This document shows positions 13,973-63,795 of a DNA stretch of 64,000 nt, in pieces. The stretch covers positions 496,001-560,000 of the forward strand of contig NZ_CP059557.1 of NCBI RefSeq assembly GCF_022828475.1, read 5' to 3'. The stretch's first letter is position 1. Every line of letters begins with the position of its first letter. The translations under genes were made by a program, and so were the position numbers. The notes below the pieces were generated by a model that saw nothing but the letters and a program-made list of their open reading frames with translations, was not told the DNA's origin and ran no database searches. The stretch comes from Saccharopolyspora gloriosae (GTDB lineage Bacteria > Actinomycetota > Actinomycetes > Mycobacteriales > Pseudonocardiaceae).

Positions 13973-14070
13973 GCGGAACCTCAGCGCTCTTCTCGCTGCG
14001 GGAGCGATCTTCGAGTGGCTCCGCCACGCGCAACATTGCTGTGCTCGCGGGAAGAACGCTGAGAACTCGC
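13973..14070 (+). repeat. Dispersed hairpin element, copy A
   Basis: Arms CTCAGCGCTCTTCTCGC (13980-13996) and GCGGGAAGAACGCTGAG (14047-14063) pair at 15 of 17 positions plus one wobble, with a 50-nt loop. The outer flanks are GCGGAAC and AACTCGC. It lies between malic enzyme and moaC. One of seven related copies. Confidence 0.85.
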
Positions 14071-14205
14071 TGGTGGCCGACTTGCCCTGGTGGTCGCTGC
14101 CGAGCGGTTTCGCCGCTGACAGGACAAGGGTCGCGCCTCGCCGGGGCGGTACGTGGTGTGAGCCCTGTGCGGATGGGGGCGGGGCGGGCTCTTAAGGTTT
14201 GCGGT

Positions 14206-14685
14206 ATGGCGCAGGACGAGCTCACGCACGTGGACGAGTCGGGGGCGGCTCGCATGGTCGACGTCTCCGAGAAGGAGGCGACCGCGCGCACCGCCGTGGC
14301 CACCGGGATCGTGCGCACCACGGCCGAAGTCCTCGCGCTGGTGCGGCGGGACGGGCTGCCCAAGGGCGATGCGCTGGCGACCGCGCGGATCGCCGGGATC
14401 ATGGCGGCGAAGCGCACTCCCGACCTCGTCCCGCTGTGCCATCCGATCGCGCTGTCCGGCGTCAAGGTGCAGCTGGACCTCGGGGACGCGGAGGTCCGGA
14501 TCACGGCGACGGTGCGCACCACCGACCGGACCGGTGTCGAGATGGAGGCGCTGACCGCCGTCACCGGTGCCGGGCTCGCGCTGCACGACATGATCAAAGC
14601 GGTCGATCCGGCCGCGGTGCTCGACGCCGTCCGCGTCGAACGCAAAGAAGGCGGCAAAACGGGCACCTGGGTTCGCGAGGACTGA
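14206..14685 (+). CDS. moaC: Cyclic pyranopterin monophosphate synthase MoaC
   Basis: Second step of molybdenum cofactor synthesis: converts the MoaA product to cyclic pyranopterin monophosphate. Length 159 aa, normal for the family. Conserved motifs seen are KRTPDLVPLCHPI and the C-terminal HDMIKAVDPA with the catalytic Lys/Asp region. ATG 14206 has no ribosome site, but a TAAGGT -10-like hexamer ends 7 nt upstream, so the mRNA may be leaderless. It is followed by the mog-moaE fusion in the same direction. Confidence 0.96.
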   Translation: MAQDELTHVDESGAARMVDVSEKEATARTAVATGIVRTTAEVLALVRRDGLPKGDALATARIAGIMAAKRTPDLVPLCHPIALSGVKVQLDLGDAEVRITATVRTTDRTGVEMEALTAVTGAGLALHDMIKAVDPAAVLDAVRVERKEGGKTGTWVRED

Positions 14686-14778
14686 TCAATCGGCCGTCGG
14701 CGGCGGCTCGTAGGCTGGACCTAGTGCAGCGACGTCCGCTCCGTCGCGCCTGCCCGGCGATCGCAAGGAGTTCCGCCC

Positions 14779-15744
14779 ATGTCAGCACGCACCGCTCGTG
14801 TCGTGGCCGCGTCGAACCGTGCCGCGGCAGGCGTCTACACCGACCGCACCGGACCGGTCATCGTCGAATGGCTGCGGGAGCGCGGCTTCGAGGTCGGCGA
14901 CCCGCTGGTCGTGCCGGACGGTGAGCCGGTGGGGCGAGCGCTGCGGGAGGCCGTGGACGCCGAGGTCACCGTGGTGATCACCACCGGCGGCACCGGGATC
15001 AACCCGACCGACCGCACTCCCGAGGTCACCGGCGAAGTGCTGGACTACGAGGTTCCGGGCTTGGCCGACGCGGTGCGTTCGGCCGGTCTGCCGCAGGTGC
15101 CGACGGCGGTGCTCTCCCGCGGGACGGCCGGGGTGAGCGGGCGGACACTGATCGTGAACCTGCCGGGATCTCGCGGCGGCGTCGCCGACGGGCTCGGCGT
15201 GCTCGACGGAGTGCTCGATCACGCCGTGGACCAGCTCCGCGGCGGTGATCACGCGCCCGGCGGCGGGGTCGAACCGGGCGCCTCGGACTCTCACGAGCAC
15301 TCGGCCGCCGGGTCGGGCGCGGCCGCCGTGCTGCTGGCCGAGGTCGCCGACCGCCCGCTGCGAGTCGCGGACTTGGAGCGGCTGGTGGAGGACCGGGCCG
15401 CGGGCGCGGTCGTCACCTTCGGCGGCGTGGTGCGGGATCACGATGGCGGGCGCGGCGTGACCGAGCTCGAATACGTCGGGCATCCCAGCGCCGACGAGGT
15501 GATCCGCGAGGTCGCCACCGAGCTGGCCGGCCGCTACGACGGAGTCCGAGCCTTGGCGGTCGCGCACCGCGTGGGCCTGCTGGGGATCGGCGACGTCGCC
15601 TTGGCCTGCGCCGTAGCCGCCGAACACCGCAAGGAGGCGTTCGCGGTGTGCGCCGAACTCGTCGACGAGGTGAAGCGCCGCCTCCCGATCTGGAAGCGCC
15701 AGGTCTTCACGGACGCATCGGAAGAATGGGTCAACTGCCCCTGA
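14779..15744 (+). CDS. MogA/MoaB-MoaE fusion protein
   Basis: Bifunctional molybdenum cofactor protein of 321 aa. Residues ~5-150 form a MoaB/Mog domain that adenylylates molybdopterin (TTGGTGINPTDRTPE and NLPGSRGG motifs). After a Gly/His/Ser-rich linker, residues ~185-320 form MoaE, the large subunit of molybdopterin synthase (GAVVTFGGVVRDHDGG, HRVGLLGIGD, RRLPIWKRQ with the active lysines). M. tuberculosis has these as separate adjacent genes. AAGGAG lies 8 nt before the ATG. MoaE needs MoaD (17932, opposite strand). Confidence 0.93.
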   Translation: MSARTARVVAASNRAAAGVYTDRTGPVIVEWLRERGFEVGDPLVVPDGEPVGRALREAVDAEVTVVITTGGTGINPTDRTPEVTGEVLDYEVPGLADAVRSAGLPQVPTAVLSRGTAGVSGRTLIVNLPGSRGGVADGLGVLDGVLDHAVDQLRGGDHAPGGGVEPGASDSHEHSAAGSGAAAVLLAEVADRPLRVADLERLVEDRAAGAVVTFGGVVRDHDGGRGVTELEYVGHPSADEVIREVATELAGRYDGVRALAVAHRVGLLGIGDVALACAVAAEHRKEAFAVCAELVDEVKRRLPIWKRQVFTDASEEWVNCP

Positions 15745-15993
15745 GATCGTCTCTGCGCAGTCCGCGGCGGCGCCCAGCAGGGGAACCCCGGTTCCGCTTT
15801 CGATCTCGCTGACGACGTTCCTTGAGCGTTTCAGCCCCATCCAGGTCTCAACGAGGCAACGATCGAGGCTCACTTCACCCGCCCCGGAGCCTCACCCCCA
15901 CCGAGAACCTCAAGATCCCGCCTCCCGCCCTTTCACGGCGAGCGCCGAACCCCAAGCCTCAAAGCCACCACCGAACCCGAATCCTGACGACGA

Positions 15994-16230
15994 GCCGTGC
16001 TTTCGGCGGCGAAGCCCCCAAAAGGCCGAGCAAAGCCCCGCTTGCCTTGCGGCCGAGGGCCGTGCCGTGCGGCGTAGCCGTGCTTGTGGCGGCGAAGTCC
16101 GCGAAGGGCGGGCGAAGCCCCGCTTGCCTTGCGGCCGAGGGCCGTGCCTTGCGGCGTAGCCGTGCTTTTGGCGGCGAAGTCCGCGAAGGGCGGGCGAAGC
16201 CCCGCCTGCCTTGCGGCCGAAGGCCGTGCC
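15994..16230. repeat. GC-rich 82-bp tandem repeat array
   Basis: Two nearly identical 82-bp units start at 16059 and 16141. A shortened 65-bp unit precedes them (15994) and a partial unit begins at 16223. Each unit is built of small palindromes of the type GGCNNCGCC or CGGCCNTCGGCCG. The block continues into hairpin copy B. The 250 bases before it (15745-15993) hold no gene I can support. Confidence 0.8.
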
Positions 16231-16274
16231 TGTATGTGCGAAGCACATAGCCCACGTCAAAAAGCCGCTCACCC

Positions 16275-16373
16275 GCGGGTTCTCAGTGAGCCTCTCGCGA
16301 GGACAGCTTTTTCCCTCGTGGCGGAGCCACTTGGGAAAAAGATCCCGCAGCGAGAGGCTCACTGAGGTTCCGC
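16275..16373 (-). repeat. Dispersed hairpin element, copy B
   Basis: Arms CTCAGTGAGCCTCTCGC (16282-16298) and GCGAGAGGCTCACTGAG (16350-16366) pair perfectly over 17 bp. A nested stem in the loop pairs TTTTTCCC with GGGAAAAA and GTGGC with GCCAC. The order of the flanks (GCGGGTT first, GTTCCGC last) shows it is inverted relative to copy A. Confidence 0.85.
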
Positions 16374-16424
16374 CACCCGACCACCAAAGCAAAAAGAGCC
16401 GTGCACCCCCCAAAAAAGTGAAAC

Positions 16425-16458
16425 GGGACCCTGCCGCTGGGGGTGGCGGCAGGGTCCC
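16425..16458 (-). terminator. Intrinsic terminator of the rpf gene
   Basis: GGGACCCTGCCG and CGGCAGGGTCCC form a perfect 12-bp stem. On the minus strand a TTTTTT run follows about 8 nt later (16412-16417), which suits termination of the rpf transcript. Confidence 0.8.
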
Positions 16459-16544
16459 GGGTTGTGGAGGGGCCGGGCCGGCCCGCACGGGGGGACGGGC
16501 CGGGCTTCCGACTCCTCGCCAGGTTCATGGACCTGGCCGGGTGA

Positions 16545-17174
16545 TCACTTGATGTCGAGCTGCTGACCCGGGAAAATCATGTTCGGGTCGTTGAGCACGC
16601 TGCTGTTCTTCTCGAAGATGTCCTGGTAGTCGACGCCGTACTGGCTGGCGATCTTGCCCAGGGTGTCACCGGTCTGCACCGTGTAGTCGGCACCGTTGGA
16701 CTTCACGGTGGACTTCTTGGTGGACTTCTTGGAGCTCGAGCTCTCGCTCTTCTTCGACGAGGAGCTCTTCTCCGAGGAACCGCTCGACTTGTTGCTGGTG
16801 CTGCCGCTGGTCCAGCTGGTCTTCGAGGTGCAGCCGGGCCATGCGCCCGAGCCCTGCGAGGCGAGGACCTTCTCGGCGACCGCGATCTGCTCTTCGCGGC
16901 TGGCGTCCTTGGCGTTCGACGCGTACTGGGTGCCGCCGTACGCGGCCCAGGTGGACGGGGTGAACTGGAGACCGCCGGAGAAGCCGTTTCCGGTGTTGGC
17001 GTTCCAGTTCCCGCTGCTCTCGCACTGCGCGAGCTTGTCCCAGTCAGCGGCGTTGGCGGGTGCTGCGACCGCGATCGGGGCGGCGACCACGGCACCTGCG
17101 ATGGCCAGCCGTGCGGCGTTGCGGGCGATGCCGGCGGTGGAAGGTTTGCGGTGCTTGCCTTCGTAGCGAGTCAT
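16545..17174 (-). CDS. Resuscitation-promoting factor-like transglycosylase with LysM domain
   Basis: Secreted peptidoglycan-cleaving enzyme of 209 aa. A Sec signal peptide spans residues 1 to ~42 (LAIAGAVVAAPIAVAAPANA). The Rpf domain follows, with catalytic Glu 52 in QCESSGNW and GGLQFTPSTWAAYGG. A Ser/Lys-rich low-complexity linker spans about 125-160. A C-terminal LysM domain (YTVQTGDTLGKIASQYGV to PGQQLDIK) binds peptidoglycan. Start ATG 17174 follows GGAGAGGG. The long leader carries a c-di-AMP riboswitch, so expression is probably tied to cell-wall and turgor signalling. The position matches rpfA of mycobacteria. Confidence 0.94.
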   Translation of the reverse strand: MTRYEGKHRKPSTAGIARNAARLAIAGAVVAAPIAVAAPANAADWDKLAQCESSGNWNANTGNGFSGGLQFTPSTWAAYGGTQYASNAKDASREEQIAVAEKVLASQGSGAWPGCTSKTSWTSGSTSNKSSGSSEKSSSSKKSESSSSKKSTKKSTVKSNGADYTVQTGDTLGKIASQYGVDYQDIFEKNSSVLNDPNMIFPGQQLDIK

Positions 17175-17181
17175 TTCCCTC

Positions 17182-17347
17182 TCCTGCCGCGCTTGCGAGG
17201 TGAGCCGTCGGGTTCGGGCTGAAGCAGCCCGGCCGGCTCGGGAGCCGGCTTCACCCGCCGGGCGTTCGGGGCGCCCAGTGGTGGTTCCCTCGCCCCTGTC
17301 CGGTGGGTTCTTTCGGGGGTGGGAAGCCCGCCGGACAGGGTTCGGCG
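17182..17347 (-). promoter_or_regulatory. c-di-AMP riboswitch (ydaO/yuaA leader) upstream of rpf
   Basis: Read on the minus strand, the leader contains the conserved actinobacterial ydaO blocks in order: CGCCGAACCCTGTCCGG, then GACAGGGGCGAGGGAACCAC, then GGGTGAAGCCG, then GCTGCTTCAGCCCGAACCCG and GACGGCTCACCTCGCAAGCG. It ends just before the rpf ribosome site. Riboswitches of this class sit upstream of rpf genes in actinobacteria and turn expression off when c-di-AMP binds. Boundaries are approximate. Confidence 0.85.
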
Positions 17348-17931
17348 CTGCGGGCTTCCGTGGTCCTTGCTGATCGGTTCGGGGCCGACCGGAGAGCGAC
17401 ACTACGTAACCGATCGGCGAAGCGGAAATCTGAACATATGTGACGGTCGTCACAGTAACGATGGCTCGGGGGTGTCCGATCTCGATCGTTTGTCCTGATC
17501 AGAGCGTCGTTATCAAGTCGTTTCCGGGCCGAGATCGATCACCGTCAGTGAGGCGTGGCTCACCTCTTCGGCGCCCCTGAAACCTGCTCGTTGAGTGCTC
17601 GTCACTTTGCGAGCCGCCTGAATCGAGTCCGGAACACGCGTGGATCCGCGGGATTTTGTGATCACGCACTGATCAATCGAAGTGACGCTGAGTCATTGTG
17701 GACCTCGGTCGAGTGATCGAGTCGGCGAGATCGCGAACGGCGTCGCGGGATCGGTTCGAAGATCAAGAGACGGTCGCCGGAACGGCCGCAGAACAGCGGT
17801 GCGCATCCACTCGATCGCACACCGAAATGTCACCCGGAGGAGTGTGTCAGACACGCCGGGGAGTGTTGTATCCGCGCACGCGCGCCTGCGCGGGCGGATC
17901 AATAAGGAGAAGACTCGATCGCCGCAGTCGT
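17348..17931. other. Long intergenic region, promoter side of rpf
   Basis: About 580 bases lie between the riboswitch and the moaD stop. The part near 17400-17700 is AT-richer than its surroundings and should hold the rpf promoter on the minus strand. No ORF here has a supported start or domain. Confidence 0.5.
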
Positions 17932-18228
17932 TCAGCCACCCGCGAACGGCGGCAGCACGTCCAGCTCATCGCCCTCGCCCACCGGGGTCGAGCGGTCGCG
18001 CACCGCGACTCCGTTGAGCAGGAAGCTGCAGGCGGGCACGACGCTCGCCAACCGCTCGTCGTGCGCGGCCAGCACCGCGTCGATCACGTCGTCGGCCCGC
18101 ACCGGACCCGGCGAGCCCGCGGAGACCGTCAGCGTTTCCTCGGCCACACCTGCCGCGGCCCTGGCTCCGGCGAAGTACCGCACCCGTACCGCCAGCGCCG
18201 TCGGCGCACCTTCGAACTGCACCGTCAT
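17932..18228 (-). CDS. moaD: MoaD/ThiS-family molybdopterin synthase small subunit
   Basis: Ubiquitin-like sulfur carrier of 98 aa, partner of MoaE in converting precursor Z to molybdopterin. The beta-grasp core (VRVRYFAGARAAAGV, SFLLNGVAVRDRSTPVGEGDELDVLPPFAGG) ends in the obligatory Gly-Gly that is thiocarboxylated. It is followed by no other gene on this strand and lies 6 nt after the moaA stop, so both are cotranscribed. Confidence 0.94.
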   Translation of the reverse strand: MTVQFEGAPTALAVRVRYFAGARAAAGVAEETLTVSAGSPGPVRADDVIDAVLAAHDERLASVVPACSFLLNGVAVRDRSTPVGEGDELDVLPPFAGG

Positions 18229-18234
18229 GGCTGG

Positions 18235-19293
18235 TCAGCCTCCGATCGCGCTCATCGGGCGGGACGGCTGGGCGAACCCGTCATCGTCCATCCCGTGTCC
18301 GGCCTTCTTGGCCCACATCGTCTCCTGCCACAGCCGAGCCAGTTCGTCGTCCCCGGCGCCGTCGCGCAGCGGGGCGCGCAGATCGGTCTCGGTGGTGGAG
18401 AACAGGCAGGACCGCAGCTGCCCGTCGGCGGTGAGCCGGGTGCGGTCGCAGTCCGCGCAGAACGGCCGCGTCACCGAGCCGATCACGCCGACCGTGCCCG
18501 GGCCGCCGTCGACGAGCCAGCGCTCGGCGGGTGCCGAGCCGCGCTCGGCGACGTGCGGGGTGAGGGTGAACTCCTCGCTCAGCCGCTCCAAGATCTCGTC
18601 CGCGGTGATCATCTGGTCGCGGTCCCAGCCGTGCTGCGGGTCCAGTGGCATCTGCTCGATGAACCGCAGCTGGTACCCCTGCTCCAGGCAGAACCGCAGC
18701 AGGTCACCGGCTTCGTCGTCGTTCACGCCGCGCAGCAGCACCGCGTTCACCTTGACCGGTTCCAGGCCGGTCGCCTTCGCCGCGGCGAGTCCGTCGAGCA
18801 CGTCGTCGAAACGGTCCCGGCGGGTCAGCTGGTGGAAGGTGTCGGCGCGCAGCGTGTCCAGCGAGACGTTGACCCGGTCCAGTCCGGCCTCGACCAGCGC
18901 GTCGGCGTGCCTGCGCAGGTTGATTCCGTTGGTGGTCAACGAAGTTCTCGGATTCCCGGTCAGTGCGCTGGTGGCGCCGATGACGTCCACCAGGTCCTGG
19001 CGCAGCAGCGGTTCGCCGCCGGTGAACCGCACGTTGGTGACTCCGAGGGTCTCCACGGCGATCCGGATCAGCCGGTTCATTTCCTCGGTGTTGAGCATTT
19101 CCTGGCGTTTCAGCCACGGCAGGCCCTCTGCGGGCATGCAGTAGGTGCAGCGCAGATTGCACTTGTCGATCAACGAAACGCGAAGGTCGGTGGCCACACG
19201 GCCGAATCGGTCGACCAGTGCCGGGGTGTCCGGACGAGTCGATGTGTCGGTCGTGGGGCGCACGGCCGGGATGCCCAGGTCCACTGCGGTCAC
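18235..19293 (-). CDS. moaA: GTP 3',8-cyclase MoaA
   Basis: Radical SAM enzyme for the first step of molybdenum cofactor synthesis. Length 352 aa. The N-terminal 4Fe-4S site is KCNLRCTYC (CxxxCxxC), followed by RFTGGEPLLR for SAM binding. The second cluster is formed by CADCDRTRL and the later SCLF cysteine. The C-terminus ends in Gly-Gly (MSAIGG), needed for activity in this family. It heads the moaA-moaD unit and is divergent from the mop-type regulator at 19465, with shared control likely. Confidence 0.96.
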   Translation of the reverse strand: MTAVDLGIPAVRPTTDTSTRPDTPALVDRFGRVATDLRVSLIDKCNLRCTYCMPAEGLPWLKRQEMLNTEEMNRLIRIAVETLGVTNVRFTGGEPLLRQDLVDVIGATSALTGNPRTSLTTNGINLRRHADALVEAGLDRVNVSLDTLRADTFHQLTRRDRFDDVLDGLAAAKATGLEPVKVNAVLLRGVNDDEAGDLLRFCLEQGYQLRFIEQMPLDPQHGWDRDQMITADEILERLSEEFTLTPHVAERGSAPAERWLVDGGPGTVGVIGSVTRPFCADCDRTRLTADGQLRSCLFSTTETDLRAPLRDGAGDDELARLWQETMWAKKAGHGMDDDGFAQPSRPMSAIGG

Positions 19294-19394
19294 TCTTCGA
19301 GCGTAACCCCGCCCGGAGGGGTATTTCGATCGTCGTGCGGGCTTTATCGTGCTGCCGCGGCGGATTCCTCACCAGCGGAAATCCACAGCGGACG

Positions 19395-19437
19395 GGACTC
19401 GAGTCCGCATCCGCGTGTTCGATGACACTGTCTCATC
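19395..19437. promoter_or_regulatory. Candidate molybdate-responsive operators between moaA and the mop regulator
   Basis: GGACTCGAGTCC (19395-19406) is a perfect 12-bp palindrome. GATGACACTGTCTCATC (19421-19437) is a second dyad, overlapping the position expected for the -35 element of the downstream gene, whose -10 is probably TAATCT (19452-19457). Binding by the Mop regulator is inference. Confidence 0.4.
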
Positions 19438-19464
19438 CGCAGTTGCGGCAGTAATCTCTCGGCT

Positions 19465-19863
19465 GTGCCGCATTATCGGATTTCCGAAGCCGCCGGGCTG
19501 CTCGGCGTCAGCGACGACACCGTTCGCCGCTGGGCCGACGGCGGGCAGCTCCCCACCGAGCGCGACGGTTCCGGTCGCCTCGTGATCGACGGTGCCGACC
19601 TGGCCGAGTTCGCCCGTGAACAGGCGCGTGCCGTGCCCGATCCCTCCGGCGTGGGCCGCTCGGCCCGCAACCGGCTCGTCGGGCTGGTCACCGAGGTCGT
19701 CTCGGACCGGGTGATGTCCCAAGTGGAGTTGCAGTGCGGTCCGCACCGGGTGGTGTCGCTGATGAGCACCGAGGCCGTGCGGGAGCTGGGGCTGGAACCG
19801 GGAGTGCTGGCGGTGGCGGTGGTCAAGTCGACCGCCGTGGTGGTGGAAACGCCGGGAGGCTGA
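19465..19863 (+). CDS. MerR-type HTH plus TOBE/Mop domain molybdate-binding regulator
   Basis: Protein of 132 aa: an excisionase/MerR-like DNA-binding domain (residues ~3-50, YRISEAAGLLGVSDDTVRRW) joined to a TOBE (Mop) molybdate-binding domain (~66-128, RNRLVGLVTEVVSDRVMSQV to VVKSTAVVVE). It probably senses intracellular molybdate and controls the modABC genes it precedes. GTG 19465 lacks a ribosome site but lies 7 nt after a TAATCT -10 hexamer, so a leaderless mRNA is likely. It is separated from modA by 1 nt. Confidence 0.9.
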   Translation: MPHYRISEAAGLLGVSDDTVRRWADGGQLPTERDGSGRLVIDGADLAEFAREQARAVPDPSGVGRSARNRLVGLVTEVVSDRVMSQVELQCGPHRVVSLMSTEAVRELGLEPGVLAVAVVKSTAVVVETPGG

Positions 19864-19864
19864 C

Positions 19865-20629
19865 GTGATCGGATCCAGAGTTGTCGTGGCATTGGCCGGA
19901 TTCGCGCTGTTACTGGCCGGGTGCTCGGCCGGCGGCTCCGAGCAGGCGCAGGGCGAGCGGACGGTCACGGTGCTCGCCGCGGCCTCGCTCACGGAGTCCT
20001 TCGACGAGCTCGCAGGCCGATTCGAGGCGGAGAACCCGGGGGTGCGGGTGCAGCTGGACTACGCGGGCTCGTCCACGCTGGTCGAGCAGCTGACGCAGGG
20101 GCGCCGCGCCGACGTGTTCGCCTCGGCGGACACCAAGAACATGGACAAGGCGAGCAAGGCGGGCGTGACGGGCGCCGAGCCGCAGGTCTTCGCGACGAAC
20201 GAGCTGACGATCGCGGTGCCGAAGGGCAACCCGGACCACATCGCCTCGCTGGCCGACCTCAACGCGCCGGGCAGGCTCGTCGTGCAATGCGCGCCGCAGG
20301 TCCCGTGCGGTTCGGCGGCGCAGACCGTGGAACAGGCGGCGGGCCTGCGGATCAACGCGGCCAGCGAGGAGAACGACGTGAAGTCGGTGCTGCGCAAGGT
20401 GACCGCGGGCGAGGCCGACGCGGGCCTCGTCTACGTGACGGACGCGAAGGCCGCCGCCGACCAGGTGCAGAGCGTGGAGTTCCCGGAGTCCCAGCGGGCG
20501 ATCAACGACTATCCGATCGTGTCGCTCAAGGACGCCCCGGAACCGGAGCTGGGCGCGCGGTTCCTGGACTACGTGCGCGGCCCGGTCGGGAAGGAAGTGC
20601 TCACGGCGCACGGTTTCGGCGCCGAATGA
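19865..20629 (+). CDS. modA: Molybdate ABC transporter substrate-binding lipoprotein ModA
   Basis: Captures molybdate (or tungstate) outside the membrane and delivers it to ModBC. Length 254 aa. A lipoprotein signal ends in LLAGC (residues ~16-20). The mature protein follows the family pattern: VTVLAAASLTESFDEL, YAGSSTLVEQ, GRRADVFASAD, and SEENDVKSVLRKVTAGEADAGLVYVTDA. The stop overlaps the modB start (ATGA). Confidence 0.96.
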   Translation: MIGSRVVVALAGFALLLAGCSAGGSEQAQGERTVTVLAAASLTESFDELAGRFEAENPGVRVQLDYAGSSTLVEQLTQGRRADVFASADTKNMDKASKAGVTGAEPQVFATNELTIAVPKGNPDHIASLADLNAPGRLVVQCAPQVPCGSAAQTVEQAAGLRINAASEENDVKSVLRKVTAGEADAGLVYVTDAKAAADQVQSVEFPESQRAINDYPIVSLKDAPEPELGARFLDYVRGPVGKEVLTAHGFGAE

Positions 20630-21435
20630 GGCCGAACCGGATGCGGCGCGCGCCCTCGGTGGGCATGCCGGGTGTGCTGTGGGTGCCCGCGGCGCTCGCA
20701 CTGGCGTTGATCGTGCTGCCGGTGCTGGGCCTGCTCACCCGCGTCGATCCGGCGCGGCTGCCCGCGTTGCTGACGAGTTCGGCGGCCGTGGACGCGCTGG
20801 ACCTGTCGGTGCGCACCTCGCTGGTGGCGACCGTGTTGTCGTTGGTGTTCGGCGGGCCGCTGGCGGTGGTGCTGGCGCGGGCGCGGCTGCGCGGAGTGCG
20901 GGTGCTGCGGGCGGTGGTGCTGCTGCCGCTGGTGCTGCCGCCGGTCGTGGGCGGGCTGGCGTTGCTGTACCTGCTGGGCCGGACCGGTCCGCTGGGTGGG
21001 CTGTTGGACGACGCCGGGCTCCGGCTGCCTTACACGACGGCGGCGGTGGTGCTGGCGCAGACGTTCGTGGCGATGCCGTTCCTGGTGGTGGGGCTGGAGG
21101 GCGCGCTGCGTTCGGCCGACGCCCGTTACGAGCAGGTGGCGGCGACGCTCGGTGCCGGGCCGTGGTTGACGTTCCGGCGGGTCACGTTGCCGATGCTGCT
21201 GCCCGCGCTGGGCTCGAGCGTGGTGCTCACTTTCGCCCGCGCGCTGGGCGAGTTCGGCGCGACGATCACGTTCGCGGGCAGCCTGCAGGGCACCACGCGC
21301 ACGTTGCCGTTGGCCATCTACACCACCGCTCAGTCCGACGTGGACGCCGCGGTGGCGATGTCGTTGCTGCTGGTGGTGCTGGCTCTGCTGGTGATCGGCT
21401 TGGCGGGCACGAAGGCAGTGGAGGGACGCGCGTGA
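20626..21435 (+). CDS. modB: Molybdate ABC transporter permease ModB
   Basis: Inner-membrane permease of 269 aa with five or six hydrophobic helices. The EAA loop binding the ATPase is visible as VAATLGAGPWLTFRRVTLP. It starts at ATG 20626, overlapping the modA stop by 4 nt, and its stop overlaps the modC GTG, so the three transporter genes are translationally coupled. Confidence 0.95.
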   Translation: MRPNRMRRAPSVGMPGVLWVPAALALALIVLPVLGLLTRVDPARLPALLTSSAAVDALDLSVRTSLVATVLSLVFGGPLAVVLARARLRGVRVLRAVVLLPLVLPPVVGGLALLYLLGRTGPLGGLLDDAGLRLPYTTAAVVLAQTFVAMPFLVVGLEGALRSADARYEQVAATLGAGPWLTFRRVTLPMLLPALGSSVVLTFARALGEFGATITFAGSLQGTTRTLPLAIYTTAQSDVDAAVAMSLLLVVLALLVIGLAGTKAVEGRA

Positions 21436-23319: not shown

Positions 23320-23338
23320 GCACCGCACCGGAGTCAAC

Positions 23339-23531
23339 GGACCGTTCGTCCAGTGGGATTGGGCCGAACGGTCCGTTGGCTCGGGTGGGTTTGTGGGGTG
23401 AGCGGACCGTTTGTCCAGTGGGATTGGGCGAACGGTCCGTTGGCTCGGGTGGGTTTGTGGGGTGAGCGGACCGTTTGTCCAGTGGGATTGGGCGAACGGT
23501 CCGTTGGCTCGGGAGGGCCTGTGAAGCGAGC
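23339..23531. repeat. Three tandem 64-65 bp units, each carrying a hairpin
   Basis: Units start at 23339, 23404 and 23468. Each holds GGACCGTT...TCCAGTGGGATTGGG...AACGGTCC, which folds into a stem-loop, followed by a spacer TTGGCTCGGGTGGGTTTGTGG (altered in the last unit). A related single hairpin with the same loop theme is at 37484-37536. Confidence 0.85.
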
Positions 23532-23563: not shown

Positions 23564-23572
23564 GCTGGTCGG

Positions 23573-29790: not shown

Positions 29791-29972
29791 TCACGGGCGG
29801 GTTTTAGAACCTTCCCTGGCTTGGCGTGTGGGCGAGGGTTTTGGAGTCTCGTTCGGCTTGGCGTGCGGCGGGCTTTAGGGCCTTCCCCGGCTTGGTGTGT
29901 GGTTGGTGTGGTGCGTGGGAGGTTGGTTTTAGTGATTACTTCCAGGGCTCTTGTTGCTGGGGTGTCCGGGTA

Positions 29973-30084
29973 GCGGAACCTCGGCGGCCTTCTCGCTGCG
30001 GGATCCATTTCTGGTGTATGTCCGATACACGGCGAAATCTGGGTCCGGGCTGCTGTCCTCGCGAGAAGGCCGCTGCGAACCCGC
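29973..30084 (+). repeat. Dispersed hairpin element, copy C
   Basis: Arms CTCGGCGGCCTTCTCGC (29980-29996) and GCGAGAAGGCCGCTGCG (30061-30077) pair at 15 of 17 positions around a 64-nt loop. Outer flanks are GCGGAAC and AACCCGC. It is followed directly by a GC-rich array in the same relative order as copy B. Confidence 0.82.
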
Positions 30085-30117
30085 CGGTGGTCGTTTTGCG
30101 TGGGTGGGCTTTGCGCT

Positions 30118-30330
30118 GACGCGCATCCAGGCACGGCCTTCGGCCGCGAGGCGCGGGTTCGCCGTAAGGCACGGCTGCGCCGCCAGGCACGGCTGCGCCG
30201 CAGCACGGCCTTTGGCCGCGAGGCAGGCTTGCTTCGCTTTGCCCTTGGCGGGCTTCGCCGCCGACTGCACGGCTATCGCCGCAAGGCACGGCTTCGCTGC
30301 GAGGGACGGCCTTCGGCTGCGAGGTAGGCG
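30118..30330. repeat. Second GC-rich array of GCACGGC/CTTCGGCCGC units
   Basis: Irregular tandem series of short palindromic units such as GGCACGGCCTTCGGCCGCGA and AGGCACGGCTGCGCCGC. It is related to, but more diverged than, the array at 15994-16230 and lies on the opposite strand. With copy C it fills the gap 29791-30358; no gene is supported there. Confidence 0.75.
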
Positions 30331-30358
30331 GGGTTTTCCTGTGCGGCGAGTGAATCTG

Positions 30359-37483: not shown

Positions 37484-37536
37484 GAAGTGAACGGACCGTT
37501 CGTCCAACGGGATTGGACGAACGGTCCGTTCACTTC
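37484..37536. terminator. Perfect 23-bp hairpin terminator
   Basis: The arms at 37484-37506 and 37514-37536 are exact reverse complements (core ACGGACCGTTCGTCC) around the loop ACGGGAT. It begins right after the ATPase stop and ends 17 nt before the convergent DUF397 stop. It belongs to the same family as the tandem hairpins at 23339-23531. Confidence 0.88.
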
Positions 37537-54956: not shown

Positions 54957-54979
54957 CCGGCCTGCTTGGAGGGGCGGGG

Positions 54980-55078
54980 GCGGAACCTCAGCCGTCTTCT
55001 CGCTGCGAGATCTTCTTCCCTAGCGGCTCCGGCCACGAGGGAGAAGCCGTCCGCGCGAGAAGACGGCTGAGAACCCGC
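54980..55078 (+). repeat. Dispersed hairpin element, copy D
   Basis: Arms CTCAGCCGTCTTCTCGC (54987-55003) and GCGAGAAGACGGCTGAG (55055-55071) pair perfectly over 17 bp. Outer flanks GCGGAAC and AACCCGC are intact. The sequence downstream (GGCTTCGCCGCTGACAGG) resembles that after copies A and G. Confidence 0.88.
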
Positions 55079-55178
55079 TGCGGCGCCGGTTGCTGGGGTG
55101 GTCGCCGCTCATCGGCTTCGCCGCTGACAGGAAACAGATCAAAGACCCGTGCCGAATCCGGCTTCAGCGGCGGACCGC

Positions 55179-55640
55179 TCATCGCAGCGGGATGTCCTGG
55201 CCGTGCTCCTCCGCGGGGCGAGGGCCGAACAAGCGGCGCTCGTCCTCGGTGATCCGGACGTCGTTGATGCTGGCTTCGCGGCGGCGCATCAGGCCGGTGT
55301 CGGTGAACTCCCACAGCTCGTTGCCGTAGCTGCGCCACCACTGGCCGTCGTGATCGCGGCACTCGTACTGAAAGCGGACCGCGATGCGATCACCGTGGTA
55401 GCTCCAGAGGCTCTTGCGCAGCGCGTAATCCAGTTCGCGCTCCCACTTGGCGGTCAGGAACTCCACGATCTCCGCGCGGCCGGTGACGAAGGTGTCCCGG
55501 TTGCGCCAGACGGAGTCGGGCGTGTACGCGAGGCTGACCCGGTGCGGGTCGCGGGTGTTCCAGGCGTCTTCGGCGGCCTGGACCTTCCGCAGCGCGGACT
55601 CCTCGTCGAACGGCGGGAACGGCGGGCGAGGTTCGGACAT
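55179..55640 (-). CDS. DUF1348/SnoaL-like (NTF2 fold) protein
   Basis: Small cytosolic protein of 153 aa. Seen: [40 protein letters not shown] and [20 protein letters not shown], typical of DUF1348. The NTF2-like cone often binds a small ligand; no activity is established. It is bounded by hairpin copies D and E. Confidence 0.88.
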
Positions 55641-55685
55641 GGGCTCAGGGCTCCTTGCGGAATGGGCTGCGTGGTGGGTCGCTCA

Positions 55686-55767
55686 GCGGAACTCAGCGAC
55701 TCCCTCGCTGCGGGATCGATTTCTCATGGCCCCCACACGGCGAAATCCTCGCGAGGAAGCCGCTGAG
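55686..55767 (+). repeat. Dispersed hairpin element, copy E
   Basis: Arms CTCAGCGACTCCCTCGC (55692-55708) and GCGAGGAAGCCGCTGAG (55751-55767) pair at 15 of 17 positions with a 42-nt loop. The 3' outer flank AACCCGC is missing, so this copy is partly degraded. It lies close to copy D on the other side of the DUF1348 gene. Confidence 0.78.
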
Positions 55768-55883: not shown

Positions 55884-55909
55884 AAGGCCCCTCCCGCCGA
55901 AGGGGCCTT
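55884..55909 (-). terminator. Terminator after sepH
   Basis: AAGGCCCCT and AGGGGCCTT form a 9-bp stem with an 8-nt loop, 16 nt past the sepH stop. Confidence 0.6.
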
Positions 55910-55924
55910 CCGGATGCGTCGAGG

Positions 55925-56875: not shown

Positions 56876-56915
56876 ACGCTAGCCTCCCCGGTCGTTGTCA
56901 CCAAGCTGTGACCGT

Positions 56916-56955
56916 AACCCGGCGTGCCCCCTTGACGGGGGAGCCACGCCGGGTT
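56916..56955 (-). terminator. Terminator after serC
   Basis: AACCCGGCGTG and CACGCCGGGTT pair over 11 bp with inner CCCCC/GGGGG pairing. It sits between the serC stop and the sepH start, so it separates the two transcripts. Confidence 0.7.
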
Positions 56956-57139
56956 CGGTGTCGCTTCGTGACCATCCTCTCCCTACCCGATCTTGCCTGA
57001 ATAGCGGTCGACATGCGAACACTTAGCGAAATTCGACCACTATTCCGATCACAGCAAGTGATCAACAGCCAGTTCGGGTGACACGGATGTGCCGGTCGCC
57101 ATGGTGAGGTGACGACCAGGTGAGACAGGCGCGGCGCGC

Positions 57140-58486
<1,347 letters not shown>

Positions 58487-58560
58487 TTACTGCGCGGGAG
58501 GCGCTTTGGCCAGCAACCGGACCTGGCTCTGATCGAATACAGGCCCCGTGACCAGGCATT

Positions 58561-59535
58561 TCAGGAATCGGTACGGCCGGGTGCGCCACAGCACTTCTTG
58601 TACTTGCGCTCGGCTCCGCACCAGCACGGTGCGTTACGTTCCGGCGGCCAGCTCCGCCATTCGCCGCGCAGCAGCAGATCGGTCCGGTACTGCTCCGCGG
58701 AATCCGCATCACCGGTGGACAGCTCGGCCTCGGCGCAGAACGCGGCGTAGCCGTCGGCGGATCCCGTCACAAGGGTCGCGCGCTTGCCGTCGCGGTCCGC
58801 GAGCAGCATCTCGCGCTGCAGCTCCAGCAGGTGCGCGTCGTGGTCCGGAGCGAGCGGCAGCGCGGGTGCGCGGCGGCGCAGCTCGGCGAGGTCCTCGGCA
58901 GGCCAGTGCAACACGACCACGTCGTGCCGATCCGCCATCGCATCAACGAACTTCTCGACGAAGCCCGGCTCGCAGGCGGCCTCCGCGAACGGACCGGCCG
59001 GACCGAAGGCCGCTTCGGAGATCCTGTCCAGCGCGTGGTCGAGCTCGTCCGGTGGCTGGCCGAGATCGGTGCGGATTTCGCGCCGTATTCGCAGCAGCTC
59101 GACACCGTCGTCGTTGACGGCGAGCTCGGTTTCGGGATCGGTCGCGTCGGGAATCAGGCGGGTGATGCCGATGTGGAGCCAGCGCAACGCCGTCGCGGTG
59201 TCCCCGGCGTGCTGGTAGGCGCCGGAAGCGGCGATGTAGGTGTGCTCGCGCGAGTTGAGATCGCCCATGAGCTCGTTGAGCAGCCGGTCGGCTTCGGCGC
59301 GTTCTCCGAGCCGCATGAGCATTTCGGCGTACGTGGCACGCGGGTCGAACAGCGACTCGCCGGTGTCGGCGTCGATCGCGGCCAGCAGCGCGGCGCGTTC
59401 CCGTTCCGGTTCGTGCGCGGTGCGCCAGTAATCGGCCGCTTCGACCAGGTCATCGGTGCGTTCACCGCTGTTCTCGGCATCCGCTTCGAGTGCCTCGGCC
59501 CGTTCGATGGCGGCCCTGCGGCTGTCCCTGCCCAT
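58561..59535 (-). CDS. SEC-C motif protein with TPR-like helical region
   Basis: Protein of 324 aa. The N-terminal two thirds are helical with a TPR-like pattern (AERERAALLAAIDADTGE type, DTATALRWLHIGITRLI). The C-terminus carries a SEC-C zinc motif, NAPCWCGAERKYKKCCG (CxCx8CC). SEC-C motifs occur on many unrelated proteins and in SecA. ATG 59535 is chosen (AGAGTGA upstream); ATG 59565 is 10 codons longer. Function unknown. Confidence 0.8.
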   Translation of the reverse strand: MGRDSRRAAIERAEALEADAENSGERTDDLVEAADYWRTAHEPERERAALLAAIDADTGESLFDPRATYAEMLMRLGERAEADRLLNELMGDLNSREHTYIAASGAYQHAGDTATALRWLHIGITRLIPDATDPETELAVNDDGVELLRIRREIRTDLGQPPDELDHALDRISEAAFGPAGPFAEAACEPGFVEKFVDAMADRHDVVVLHWPAEDLAELRRRAPALPLAPDHDAHLLELQREMLLADRDGKRATLVTGSADGYAAFCAEAELSTGDADSAEQYRTDLLLRGEWRSWPPERNAPCWCGAERKYKKCCGAPGRTDS

Positions 59536-59654
59536 GGCGGTCACTCTACCGAGATCGATACTCATAGTGACAGGAGATCGGCCGCTCATCACGGAGCGTT
59601 CCGAGCAAGCCCCGTCGAAGATCGTCAGCGGTGAGCCGATGAGCCGTGATCACC

Positions 59655-59767
59655 CGCGTTCTCAACGGTCTTCTCGCGAGGGCGGCAACGTCGCTCGCGG
59701 CGGCGCCGCTTGCGAAATCGCCGTCACCTCGGCCAGGGGGGCACGGCGAGAAGACCGCTGAGGTCCG
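59655..59767 (-). repeat. Dispersed hairpin element, copy F
   Basis: Arms CTCAACGGTCTTCTCGC (59660-59676) and GCGAGAAGACCGCTGAG (59745-59761) pair at 16 of 17 positions with a 68-nt loop. The order of the flanks shows inverted orientation, as in copy B. Confidence 0.82.
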
Positions 59768-59785
59768 CGACTCGGCTCGTTGAGA

Positions 59786-60916
59786 TCAGACCGCCACCGG
59801 AAGGGACTTGACCGAGTCCCAGCCGTCGACCTGCTGCGGGGAGCGCGGTTCCGGGCCGACGTACTGCGCGGACGGGCGCACCAGCCGGCCGGTGCGCTTC
59901 TGCTCCAGCACGTGCGCCGACCAGCCCGCGGTGCGGGCGCAGGTGAACATCGCGGGCATCATCTCCGTCGGCACCTGGGCGAAGTCCAGGATCACCGCCG
60001 CCCAGAACTCCACGTTCGTCTCGATCGGCCGGTCCGGGCGCCGCTCCCGCAGCACCGACAGCGCGGCCCGTTCCAGTTCGGCGGCGGCCTCGTAGCGCGG
60101 CGCGGACAGCTGCTCGCAGGTGCTGCGCAGCACCCGAGCCCGCGGGTCCTCCGCCCGGTACACCCGGTGGCCGAAGCCCATCAGCCGGTCCCCGCGGTCC
60201 AAGATGGACTCGACGACCTTGCGGGCGTCGCCGGTGCGCTCGGCCTCGGCCAGCATCGGCAGCACCCGGGCCGGGGCGCCGCCGTGCAACGGGCCGGACA
60301 TGGCGCCGACCGCGCCGGACAGGCTCGCCGCCACATCGGCTCCGGTGGAGGCGATGACGCGGGCGGTGAAGGTGGAGGCGTTGAGGCCGTGCTCGGCGGC
60401 CGACACCCAGTACGCGTCCAACGCCTGCACGTGAGCCGGATCCGGTTCGCCGCGCCACCTGGTCAGGAACGCCTCGGTGAGGGTTTCCGCCTCGGCGACG
60501 CGCTCCGCGGGAACCGGGGGCAGGTCGCCGCGGGCGGACTGGGCCACGTAGGACAGTCCGAGCGTCGTGGTCAGCGCGAGCTGGTCGCGGGCGGCGTCCT
60601 CGGTGATGTCCAGCAGCGGCGCGAACCCGTGGGCGGGTGCGAGCATCGCGATCGCGGCCTGCGCGTCGGCGCGCACGTCGCCGGTGCGCACCGGCAGCTC
60701 GGCGCCTCCAGCGTCCGGCAGGCCCTGGCCGAAGCGGCCGTCGACCAGCAGCTGCCACACATCGCCGAAGGAGACCTTGCCCGCCAGGTCCTCGATGTCG
60801 ACGCCGCGGTAGCGCAGCGCGCCGCCGTCCCGATCCGGTTCGGCGATCTCGGTCTGGAACGCGACGACGCCTTCCAGACCGGGGCGGAAGTCGGAGCCGC
60901 CTGTACTGGTGCCCAT
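59786..60916 (-). CDS. Citrate synthase
   Basis: Condenses acetyl-CoA and oxaloacetate to citrate. Length 376 aa, the short CitA type of actinobacteria. Catalytic regions: GPLHGGAPARVLPML, MGFGHRVYRAEDPRARVL and, near the C-terminus, AVILDFAQVPTEMMPAMFTCAR. It is divergent from pdxH, an arrangement seen in other actinobacteria (citA2/pdxH). Start ATG 60916. Confidence 0.94.
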   Translation of the reverse strand: MGTSTGGSDFRPGLEGVVAFQTEIAEPDRDGGALRYRGVDIEDLAGKVSFGDVWQLLVDGRFGQGLPDAGGAELPVRTGDVRADAQAAIAMLAPAHGFAPLLDITEDAARDQLALTTTLGLSYVAQSARGDLPPVPAERVAEAETLTEAFLTRWRGEPDPAHVQALDAYWVSAAEHGLNASTFTARVIASTGADVAASLSGAVGAMSGPLHGGAPARVLPMLAEAERTGDARKVVESILDRGDRLMGFGHRVYRAEDPRARVLRSTCEQLSAPRYEAAAELERAALSVLRERRPDRPIETNVEFWAAVILDFAQVPTEMMPAMFTCARTAGWSAHVLEQKRTGRLVRPSAQYVGPEPRSPQQVDGWDSVKSLPVAV

Positions 60917-61625
60917 GGTTGCCTCGTCTCCTCGTTGAATCGTTCGGGTGGCCGGGCGCTCGGCAGCGCTCGGCGGGACGTGGCGGGGTGCATGAGCACG
61001 AGCGCGATCGGTCGCAGCCTGTGCTGTGCCGGTAACACTGCACCCGGCGCGTGGGCCGAGGCAATCGGTGCGGACCCTCCCGATGGTGAAGATCACACGG
61101 TTCGGACCGGGAGATGCTTGCGACGATCCCGAAAAATGGTTGTTGACCAGGATCAATTCCGGTGTTGAGCAGGCTTCGCGATCAGGTGATCGTGCTGCAG
61201 AAGTGTTCTGCGCCTTGCCCGCGCGAACGCGACGAGATCCTCGTTCACGTGGCCGCGCGATCGCCACCGACGTCGTCACGGCGGAACGCCGACTCACCCG
61301 CGCGTTGAAACACCACCCGGAAGCAGCAGTGAGCCACCCGGAAGCGTCGGATGAGAACCCGGACGGCGAGCCCGCGGACATCGCCGCTCAACGGAACCGG
61401 ACGAACCGGCCCTGAGCTTGCTGCCATTCGAGTGTGCTCACGGTCACTGCATCGTTTGCGGAATCGATCGTGACCTTTCCGCCGGTTCGGCCTGTGTTCC
61501 GGATCCGTTTACCGTCGTACCGGTGCCCGTGGCGCACCGCGGTTGCCGCGCCGACCGGTTCGGCTCGTATCCTCCGGCGCCGCCGATCAACAGGCACACC
61601 AGTCGGGTCAGGGAGGAAATGACGG
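60917..61625. other. Long divergent intergenic region between citrate synthase and pdxH
   Basis: About 700 bases. A 129-codon frame (61026-61415) is open but has no family, no ribosome site and ordinary composition, so I do not call it. The part near 61130-61170 is AT-richer and may hold the citrate synthase promoter. The last 30 bases carry the pdxH ribosome site GGGAGGA. Confidence 0.5.
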
Positions 61626-62288
61626 ATGTCCGAAAGCACCGTGAGCACCGGCACTTTGTCGTCCATGCGGGTGTCCTACGAGGAGGGCTCCCTGCAAGAG
61701 GGCCTGCTGGCCGAGAACTGGCATGAGCAGCTGCGGATCTGGTTCGACGAGGCCGTGCGAGCGGAGGTGCCGGAGCCGAACGCGATGGTGCTGGCGACGG
61801 CGGACGCCGACGGATTCCCCTCCTCGCGGACCGTGCTGTGCAAGGGATTCGACGAGCGCGGACTGGTCTTCTTCACCAACTACACCTCGTCGAAGAGCCA
61901 CGACCTCACCGCGACCCGCGTTGCCGCCGCGACCTTCCCGTGGCTTTCGCTGCAACGCCAGGTCAACGTGCGCGGCACCGTCGAGAAGGTGCGCACCGAC
62001 GAGACCGCCGAGTACTGGGCGGTGCGCCCGCGCGGTTCGCAGCTCGGCGCGTGGGCCTCGCCGCAGTCCCGGGTGGTGACCGGACGCGAGGCGCTGCAGT
62101 CCTCGCTCAACGGCATCGAACGACGCTTCGCCGATGCCGAGAAGGTTCCGGTGCCGCCGCACTGGGGCGGCTGGCGCATCCTCCCCGAGGCCGTGGAGTT
62201 CTGGCAGGGCCGTCCGGATCGGCTGCACGACCGCCTCCGCTTCCGCCGCAACGACGCCGACTGGGCAGTCGAACGGCTTGCTCCGTAA
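61626..62288 (+). CDS. pdxH: Pyridoxamine 5'-phosphate oxidase PdxH
   Basis: FMN enzyme of 220 aa that makes pyridoxal 5'-phosphate. Family motifs: MRVSYEEGSLQEGLLAENWH, ATADADGFPSSRTVLCKGFD, FFTNYTSSKSHDLTATRVAA, WAVRPRGSQLGAWASPQSRV and the C-terminal EFWQGRPDRLHDRLRFRR. ATG 61626 follows GGGAGGA by 9 nt. Confidence 0.96.
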   Translation: MSESTVSTGTLSSMRVSYEEGSLQEGLLAENWHEQLRIWFDEAVRAEVPEPNAMVLATADADGFPSSRTVLCKGFDERGLVFFTNYTSSKSHDLTATRVAAATFPWLSLQRQVNVRGTVEKVRTDETAEYWAVRPRGSQLGAWASPQSRVVTGREALQSSLNGIERRFADAEKVPVPPHWGGWRILPEAVEFWQGRPDRLHDRLRFRRNDADWAVERLAP

Positions 62289-62397
62289 GGCCCCGCTGCT
62301 CGGGTGTCGAGCGTTCACCTGGATGGCGGCCGGAGGTCGTCGGGTGCGTCACAACGGCAGGTTTCTTTAGCGAGGCTCATGGCTAGGCTGGCCCCTC

Positions 62398-63684
62398 GTG
62401 GACCAGCACACCAGCGCTACGGAAAACCGGCGGTCGTGGCGGAAATTGCTCGGCAAGATCGTGCTCGACACCCGGCCGCTGGGATTCCCGGCGTACCGGC
62501 GGCTGTGGACCTCCAGCATCGTCACGTCGGTCGGTGCCCAGTTCAGTGCCGTCGCCGTGCCCAAGCAGCTCTACGACCTCACCGGGAACTCCGCCTACGT
62601 CGGGCTCGCCGGGATCTTCGGACTGGTGCCGCTGCTGGTGTTCGGGCTCTGGGGCGGTGCCGTCGCCGACACCGTGGACCGCCGGAAGCTGCTGCTGGTC
62701 ACCAACAGCGGCCTCGCCGCGACCGCGACTCTGCTGTGGCTGGTGGCCGCCGGCGGCGTCGGCTCGGTGTGGCTGGTGCTGGTGCTGTTCGCGTTGCAGC
62801 AAACCTGTTTCGCGGTGAACATGCCTGCCCGCAGCGCCGCCATCGCCCGGATCATCCCCGCGCCGCTGCTGCCGTCGGCGCAGGCGCTCAGTTCCACCGT
62901 GTTCCAGCTCGGATCCGTCGTCGGGCCGCTGCTGGCCGGTGTGCTGCTGCCACTGCTCGGACTGTCGGTGCTGTACCTGGTGGACGCGCTCGCGCTCACC
63001 GTCGCGGTGTGGGCGGTGTTCCGGTTGCCCGCGATGCCGCCGCAGGCCGGGGCGCCGACGAAGGCCGGGCTGCGGTCGGTCATCGACGGATTCCGCTACC
63101 TCGCAACGCATCCCGTGCTGCTCGCGTCGTTCCTGATGGACATCATCGCGATGGTGTTCGGCATGCCGCGAGCCCTGTTCCCCGAACTCGCCGAACGGGT
63201 CTACGGCGACCCGGCGGGCGGCGGCGTGGCGCTGGGCCTGCTCTACGCGGCGATCCCGTTGGGCGCCTTCGTGTTCGGCGTGCTGTCCGGCTGGCTGCAC
63301 CGCATCGTGCGCCACGGTGTCGGTGTCACCATCGGCGTCATCGTCTGGGGCGTGGCGATCATCGGTTTCGGGCTGTCGGACTCGTTGTGGCTCGGCGTCG
63401 TGTTCCTCGCCATCGGCGGCGGCGCGGACCTGGTGAGCATGGTCTACCGGAGCTCGATGCTGCAGGCCGCCGCGACCGATGAGATGCGCGGCCGCATCCA
63501 GGGCGTGTTCACCGTCGTCGTCGCGGGCGGACCGCGGCTCGCGGACGTGCTGCACGGCAGCGGTGGCGCCGCGATCGGCGCGCAGACCACGATCGCCGCG
63601 GGCGGAGTGCTCGTCGTGGTGTGCGCAGTGGCAGCCGTCCTGCTGTTCCCGGCGTTCTGGCGCTACCGCGCTCCGACCGCCTAG
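62398..63684 (+). CDS. MFS exporter, EntS-like
   Basis: Membrane transporter of 428 aa with 12 helices. Segments such as FPAYRRLWTSSIVTSVGAQF, GGAVADTVDRRKLLLVTNSG (motif A) and VYRSSMLQAAATDEMRGRIQ resemble the enterobactin exporter family. The substrate is unknown and there is no siderophore cluster here. GTG 62398 follows TAGGCT (62384-62389) with 8 nt between, so it may be leaderless. Codirectional with pdxH but 109 nt away. Confidence 0.9.
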   Translation: MDQHTSATENRRSWRKLLGKIVLDTRPLGFPAYRRLWTSSIVTSVGAQFSAVAVPKQLYDLTGNSAYVGLAGIFGLVPLLVFGLWGGAVADTVDRRKLLLVTNSGLAATATLLWLVAAGGVGSVWLVLVLFALQQTCFAVNMPARSAAIARIIPAPLLPSAQALSSTVFQLGSVVGPLLAGVLLPLLGLSVLYLVDALALTVAVWAVFRLPAMPPQAGAPTKAGLRSVIDGFRYLATHPVLLASFLMDIIAMVFGMPRALFPELAERVYGDPAGGGVALGLLYAAIPLGAFVFGVLSGWLHRIVRHGVGVTIGVIVWGVAIIGFGLSDSLWLGVVFLAIGGGADLVSMVYRSSMLQAAATDEMRGRIQGVFTVVVAGGPRLADVLHGSGGAAIGAQTTIAAGGVLVVVCAVAAVLLFPAFWRYRAPTA

Positions 63685-63711
63685 GGGCGGCCTGCGGAGG
63701 TGTCCGTTTCA

Positions 63712-63795
63712 GCGGGGCGTCAGTGAGCCGCTCGCTGCGGGATCTTTTTCCGAGTGGCTTCGCGAGTCCTCGCGGGAGGCTCACTGAGAACCCGC
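63712..63795 (+). repeat. Dispersed hairpin element, copy G
   Basis: Arms GTCAGTGAGCCGCTCGC (63719-63735) and GCGGGAGGCTCACTGAG (63772-63788) pair at 14 of 17 positions, one of the rest a wobble, with a 36-nt loop. The 3' flank AACCCGC is intact and is followed by GGCTTCGCCGCTGAC. The remaining bases to 64000 hold no gene I can support. Confidence 0.8.

Follow-up and report, generated by a model that had tools for sequence, protein, structure and literature searches.

Introduction

Repetitive extragenic palindromic (REP) elements are described in PMC3733652 as lying a short distance after the upstream gene and between genes that converge, and compensatory changes are reported for the hairpins of REPINs, in which two inverted REPs form one hairpin (PMC3116915). 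The present analysis deals with a family of long intergenic hairpins, seven copies of which lie in a 64,000-nt stretch of the Saccharopolyspora gloriosae genome (the window), namely bases 496001-560000 of a single 6,878,695-bp contig. We read these hairpins, at a probability of roughly 55%, as a long REP-like, non-autonomous mobile family whose copies overwrite one another. The family resembles REP elements, as described in PMC3733652, PMC3686654 and PMC8266576, in its high copy number, its intergenic location, its GT[A/G]G foot, its position after genes and in convergent or tandem intervals, and its conserved stem mismatch, as in the REPs of Escherichia coli. It differs from them in that the REP palindrome is 20-40 nt long whereas the intact cores here are 98-100 nt long, and in that no Y1 transposase is present in the five genomes with the most hits. 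Its length and the missing REP-associated tyrosine transposase (RAYT) keep the family out of REP proper, although it probably works like REP. The term 'actinobacteri' does not occur in the main texts of PMC3733652 and PMC3686654.

The hairpins share with REPINs, as these are presented in PMC3116915, a conserved outer part, a variable pairing inner part and compensatory changes, but they do not have GTAG...CTAC ends, the 3' side being mostly CGG or GGG, and no RAYT was found. Like miniature inverted-repeat transposable elements (MITEs), they are short non-autonomous insertions with inverted arms that are missing at the corresponding site in relatives, but no clean target duplication is seen by eye and no autonomous partner was found in searches of the Y1 and Y2 families. 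Like intrinsic terminators, they place a hairpin after the stop codon, oriented as the gene, but they are a repeated mobile sequence, have no T-run directly behind the stem, and have separate terminators beside 4/25 sense copies. No description of this hairpin family is found among the matches listed (titles and starts of abstracts) from the open-access literature on Saccharopolyspora, REP, MITE, concerted evolution and quasipalindromes.

Results

Detection of the hairpin family

The original prediction described seven intergenic hairpins that share one layout and have covarying arms. Direct reading and alignment with other copies (27 rows in total) place all seven sites in one family, and the shared layout is found at every one of them, far above chance as judged from reversed patterns. 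The exact 5' arm pattern has 98 matches in this genome (G000), as compared with 0 for the reversed pattern; besides this genome, Saccharopolyspora sp. NFXS83 (32 stretches) is the only match to it in a collection of named genomes. The exact two-arm pattern has 181 matches in G000 and 279 in a relative (G001), the reversed control giving 0 in both. The covariance-model scan proposed with the prediction finds the family in this genome and in relatives: the model, R1, gives 53 matches on 464 kb of G000, which represent 30 sites and 23 opposite-strand readings of the same palindromes, and 72 matches on 500 kb of G001, which represent 36 sites. Extrapolation gives ~445 copies per genome for G000 and ~490 for G001. 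The 66 copies obtained by these scans of contiguous DNA (30 here and 36 in G001) are termed unbiased, R1 itself having been built from pattern-found copies. The pattern-found set consists of 158 copies, for which fixed letters were searched with at most three changes in 12 and at most one in 5, some loci being obtained via exact patterns. The NFXS83 loci were selected partly on letters within the variable block defined below, so that their block variety is narrowed. An apparent strand switch in G001, a plus-strand run at ~1.3-3.0 Mb, is judged to be a listing artefact, because minus-strand copies are known in that stretch.

Anatomy of the hairpin

The intact palindrome is 98-100 nt long and folds as one strand. 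The repeat unit reaches beyond it: a loosely conserved left flank of ~28 nt is followed by GT[A/G] and then by the order GCGGAACCTCAG-N7-CTCGC-TGCGGGATC-inner hairpin-GCTGTCCTC-GCGAG-N7'-CTGAGAACCCGC, and the right flank either stops soon at CGGCTTCGCCGCTGACAAGAC or runs on as a tandem tail of CACGGCTTCGCCGC-type units. The elements are, very roughly, ~200 nt long overall, and longer with the tandem tail. From the foot inwards, the stem has GCGG/CCGC, then a loop in which AAC/AAC is unpaired, a helix of 17 pairs, a bulge (UGC), a helix of five pairs and an inner hairpin that varies.

The middle seven pairs of the 17-pair helix (the block) accept almost any pairing sequence, each of them showing two to four Watson-Crick types in the 154 pattern-found copies that have seven-letter blocks. 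The prediction had given arm positions 6 to 11 as variable; they are, and the variable part extends over all seven pairs between CTCAG and CTCGC. The fixed arm pairs are nearly invariant (148-154 of the 154 copies, partly by construction), and the unpaired AAC/AAC positions are conserved in 151, 151 and 154 of them, again partly by construction, because the search pattern tolerates few changes there. In other genera CTCAG and CTCGC change too, pairwise (CTCAC/GTGAG, CTGGC/GCCAG, CTGAG/CTCAG). Two G-U pairs are fixed in the five-pair helix (42/45 and 44/45 rows). The GT[A/G]G foot is found in 62/72 copies of this genome and in 29/36 and 24/32 copies elsewhere, the remainder having other letters, such as TCA. 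Beyond the 3' foot most copies read CGG or GGG and then mostly TGG, which is not the complement of the foot. Some copies have a short T-run ~11-13 nt beyond the foot, none directly behind the stem, and a scan by pattern picks out, within the 5' arm, a small stem of alternative pairing that has the TTTTT of the inner hairpin behind it. The copies of the window, with their tails and a neighbouring hairpin, are as follows.

13973..14070, plus strand: hairpin core, copy A; block CGCTCTT, 3' arm reading CGTTCTT (one mismatch)
16275..16373, minus strand: hairpin core, copy B; 17/17 pairs, block TGAGCCT
29973..30084, plus strand: hairpin core, copy C; block CGGCCTT, ~12 extra nt inside
54980..55078, plus strand: hairpin core, copy D; 17/17 pairs, block CCGTCTT (CGGTTTC in G001)
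55686..55767, plus strand: shortened hairpin, copy E; 3' foot missing
59655..59768, minus strand: diverged hairpin, copy F; arms pair, interior diverged
63712..63795, plus strand: shortened hairpin, copy G; block TGAGCCG, 3' arm TGAGCCT
16022..16267, minus strand: 3' tail of copy B; small TTCG hairpins and 82-bp tandem unit
30085..30340, plus strand: 3' tail of copy C; GGCACGGCTTCGCCGC-type units
55079..55135, plus strand: short-form 3' tail of copy D; contains CGGCTTCGCCGCTGACAGGA
16424..16459, minus strand: terminator-like hairpin of the neighbouring gene, separate, just before copy B

The two fully paired copies that had been predicted are those at 16275 and 54980, and the quoted arm pairs TGAGCC/GGCTCA, CCGTCT/AGACGG and GGCCTT/AAGGCC read as claimed. 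One mismatch and one G-T occur among the 17 pairs in each of the copies at 13973 and 29973. The folding z values are -3.4 (13973), -6.8 (16275), -4.5 (29973), -5.9 (54980), -0.9 (55686), -3.9 (59655, for which the folded stretch is short at the 5' arm) and -3.6 (63712). The site of copy B carries the block GTGTCTT in G001 and CGTCCTT in G002, a genome of the window's genus.

Three observations concern the surroundings of these copies. The tail of copy B contains ~2.5 copies of an 82-bp tandem unit of TTCG mini-hairpins (16022-16230), and such tails vary in length between sites and species. The intergenic segment of copy C (29800-30340) appears inverted in G001, and in G003 an oppositely oriented copy lies between the same genes. 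A small reversed open reading frame (55179-55640) lies between two same-direction hairpins (54980-55767), and the frame and both hairpins are jointly missing in G003 and G004.

Covariation of the arms

The covariation set consists of 48 chosen sequences (45 distinct) from ten genomes of five genera, and its 33-pair structure was derived from the same sequences. Of its 1481 cells, 97.5% are paired, and 157 are changed on both sides, as compared with 39 in shuffles. Changes on both sides occur in 17 pairs, and five measures beat slid versions and shuffles, at most 2/500 of which reach them. A tree-based covariation test, which was purpose-made, modelled on R-scape but simpler, and run with 40 simulated alignments, gives five significant column pairs, all in the stem and 0 elsewhere. 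The pairs 17-86, 18-85, 35-69 and 36-68 lie near the threshold (E 0.08 to 0.2), and the remaining inner-helix pairs do not. These results indicate that the predicted covariation is significant in the wider family.

Among the unbiased copies, 61/66 are usable, 42 of which are perfect over 21 pairs; in the other five, one arm is too diverged or truncated for scoring. The unpaired cells contain no excess of wobble pairs either in the unbiased set (G-U 17, A-C 13, other 17) or in the larger selected set (G-U 20, A-C 27, other 30). The stem is kept, as predicted; these counts do not discriminate between selection on structure and arm copying, the two explanations that had been offered.

Turnover at shared sites

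A syntenic interval is found in G001 for 28/30 copies, with a hairpin at 15 and none at 13, by pattern and by model. At the 14/15 shared sites that are comparable, 45 of the 98 block pairs are unchanged, 51 are changed on both arms and 2 on one arm. The block is identical at 0/14 of these sites, 4% being expected for random draws from both pools, and two of the 14 hairpins are inverted between the two genomes. The loops differ at 78/703 aligned letters, with no difference at two sites, of which 16275 is one.

In 23 distinct orthologous pairs from G000-G003, likeness does not exceed that of random copies in the loop, in the block, in the 12 nt before the hairpin or in the 16 nt behind it: the fractions of random sets at least as alike are 0.59 for the loop, 0.75 for the block, 0.25-0.40 for the 12 nt before and 0.59-0.66 for the 16 nt behind. 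In contrast, the outer windows are more alike than random, with fractions of 0 to 0.024 at -60..-12 and 0.001 to 0.018 at +16..+75. Orthologous likeness is thus lost within about -12 to +16. None of the 23 pairs is identical on both arms. This turnover of both arms at kept sites is the unusual feature of the family.

The blocks come from a restricted repertoire of recurring alleles: nine occur among the perfect copies of this genome (each at least 2 times), fourteen in G001 and four in NFXS83. The counts over 98 rows are TTGGTCT 20, CTGTCTT 14, TGAGCCT 14 and CGGCCTT 9, plus fifteen others, and some imperfect copies are hybrids that carry one arm each of two common blocks. We conclude from these alignments that sites are retained while their hairpins are replaced from a pool that spans the genome, by a mechanism that is proposed in the Discussion. 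The predicted drift of the sequence under a kept stem stands in so far as both arms change; part of the change is not drift in place, the shared sites looking as if overwritten from the family pool.

Distribution, insertion traces and search for a transposase

R1 matches 13/60 genomes, this genome included, and 0/24 from other families. Within Pseudonocardiaceae it matches 39/150 genomes and 13/46 genera, at most 24 candidates being scored per genome; in each of five genera, four to six genomes are positive. Corresponding sites that lack the element occur in relatives.

The prediction had suggested a search for a RAYT or another transposase. A link to RAYT or IS200/IS605 enzymes (PF01797) is not supported, no such enzyme being found near copies or in the five richest genomes; PF01797 occurs in 5/13 element genomes and in 6/47 others. 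The search for an IS91-type Y2 transposase gives no match in 37 genomes, but is uninformative, because no control genome matched either. Plasmid and phage collections, as sources of candidate carriers, contain no match to the element. Two loci, L024 and L029 (around 1500), share the left flank ACACAACAGGTA, and at L029 a frame that reads as transposase-like stops immediately in front of this flank, as would be seen if an insertion sequence had inserted at the foot of the hairpin.

Placement at gene ends

Genes were predicted with a simple purpose-made codon-model caller. All seven copies of the window lie between predicted genes, as claimed, and 0/66 unbiased copies overlap a predicted gene by >20 nt, so that copies are not found inside genes at the rate expected by chance. 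Intervals between divergent genes hold 0/66 unbiased copies, 20-26% being expected. A gene 3' end lies on the 5' side of 58/66 copies (25/30 here and 33/36 in G001), as compared with 45-46% for random intergenic placement, and 47/66 (21/30 and 26/36) lie within 35 nt of a gene 3' end, as compared with 5-6%. The distance from stop codon to hairpin is 26-46 nt in 35/72 copies here, 18 having no detected upstream frame. The prediction that the copies occur in both orientations is correct for the strand, the copies at 16275 and 59655 being on the minus strand; relative to the genes the orientation is biased and not random, 25/30 copies and 6/7 in the window having the end of a co-directional gene on the 5' side.

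Twelve element-less sites of G001 have a mean folding z of -2.1, and the first 80 nt have z < -2 at 7/12, often as an unrelated long hairpin; in this set three sites have a gene start on the 5' side, and one 49-nt site was left out. For comparison, z < -2 is found at 27% of 60 sampled element-free 3' ends and at 12% of 60 5' ends. A separate canonical terminator lies beside 4/25 sense copies, 16275 included, and none lies within 700 nt of the other 21/25. Canonical terminators are equally rare behind element-free genes (10/183, as compared with 14/226 backward-read regions), so that their absence beside a copy says little. The hairpins themselves do not have the GC-rich stem directly followed by a T-run of a terminator, and Rfam gives 0 matches above the gathering score in the window. 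A role of the hairpins at RNA 3' ends is thus plausible rather than established.

Other features of the window

Another family of palindromic repeats, GTGAACGGACCGTTCGTCC ... GGACGAACGGTCCGTTCAC, whose copies often stand in tandem, is seen at 23333-23505 and 37487-37533; its exact half-site has 177 matches in the genome, the reversed control giving 0. ARAGORN predicts a tRNA-Ala (ggc) of 93 nt, longer than usual, at 58333-58425.

Discussion

Terminators, mRNA-end stabilisers and a MITE- or REP-like mobile family had been offered as readings of these hairpins. The REP-like mobile family is the best supported of them, by the element-less sites in relatives, the GT[A/G]G foot and the REP-like placement, whereas use as a terminator is unproven, 4/25 sense copies having a separate terminator. 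In the mechanism that we propose, a factor would recognise the folded single strand through its shape plus the fixed bases, so that the helix could vary freely provided that it still pairs. Copies would spread into gene ends, and resident hairpins would be overwritten by other family members through ectopic gene conversion or re-insertion, which would replace both arms at once. New blocks may arise through paired changes, either by arm-to-arm template switching or by compensatory substitution. A more specific form of this proposal, in which a REP-like family without a RAYT exchanges complete cassettes between gene ends and the matched seven-pair block is an interchangeable tag, the sites being kept and re-tagged between sister species, is doubtful.

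Several results weigh against a mobile, self-overwriting family. Mobility alone accounts neither for the strict sense orientation nor for the spacing between stop codon and hairpin. The differences between genomes are insertion-like, but the ends of the element are fuzzy and no clean target duplication is seen by eye. Y1 transposase (PF01797) is absent in G000-G003 and G018, the five genomes with the most hits, and seven neighbourhoods of Y1 genes, of 16 kb, hold no hairpin copy. Adjacent copies share blocks no more often than shuffled ones (0.103 in both cases), which gives no sign of distance-dependent conversion. Turnover is also not extreme everywhere: in five of the 23 orthologous pairs the 5' blocks are a single letter apart, and two of these five are G000/G002 pairs with agreeing 3' arms.

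The hairpin may instead be a functional RNA at mRNA 3' ends, such as a transcription end point, a stabiliser or a protein-binding site, whose pairing is kept by direct selection on each copy. This is possible, though unlikely. Such a role would fit the position of 58/66 copies behind a gene 3' end, 47/66 of them within 35 nt, with none between divergent genes, and the two fixed G-U pairs suit the sense strand; the frequent folding of element-less sites in G001 (7/12, as compared with 27% of element-free 3' ends) and the 21/25 sense copies without a separate canonical terminator within 700 nt point in the same direction. However, the lack of a wobble excess in unpaired cells, the 5/66 copies in which an arm is too diverged or truncated to score, the lack of a T-run directly behind the stem and the failure of shared sites to retain their own hairpin weigh against this reading.

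Alternatively, mutation alone may keep the pairing, if template switching during replication copies one arm onto the other with neither selection nor present mobility, a mechanism described for hairpins in PMC8794818. The multi-pair changes at shared sites and the lack of a wobble excess are what it would produce, but we consider it improbable as the whole explanation, because it leaves unexplained the far smaller variation of CTCAG and CTCGC than of the seven pairs that they enclose, the recurrence of identical blocks at many sites and the existence of hybrids of two common blocks. Exchange of hairpin cassettes between sites by a dedicated enzyme, with the seven-pair block as specificity tag, is very improbable: the borders of orthologous likeness near -12 and +16, the recurrent alleles and the lack of distance dependence would fit it, but no such enzyme was found, and the likeness of unrelated copies also drops leftward at this border (0.70-0.74 at -12 to 0 and 0.60-0.61 at -28 to -12 for random copies), so that ordinary gene conversion could give the same border.

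A REP-like family whose copies overwrite one another would have a consequence for how such signals are read. Covariation is usually taken as proof of selection on RNA, and overwriting among repeat copies may create much of the same signal; the hundreds of replicate hairpins of this family are available for measuring the covariation that derives from overwriting. The family also points to an actinobacterial REP-like system in genomes where the known REP-type transposase is not found.

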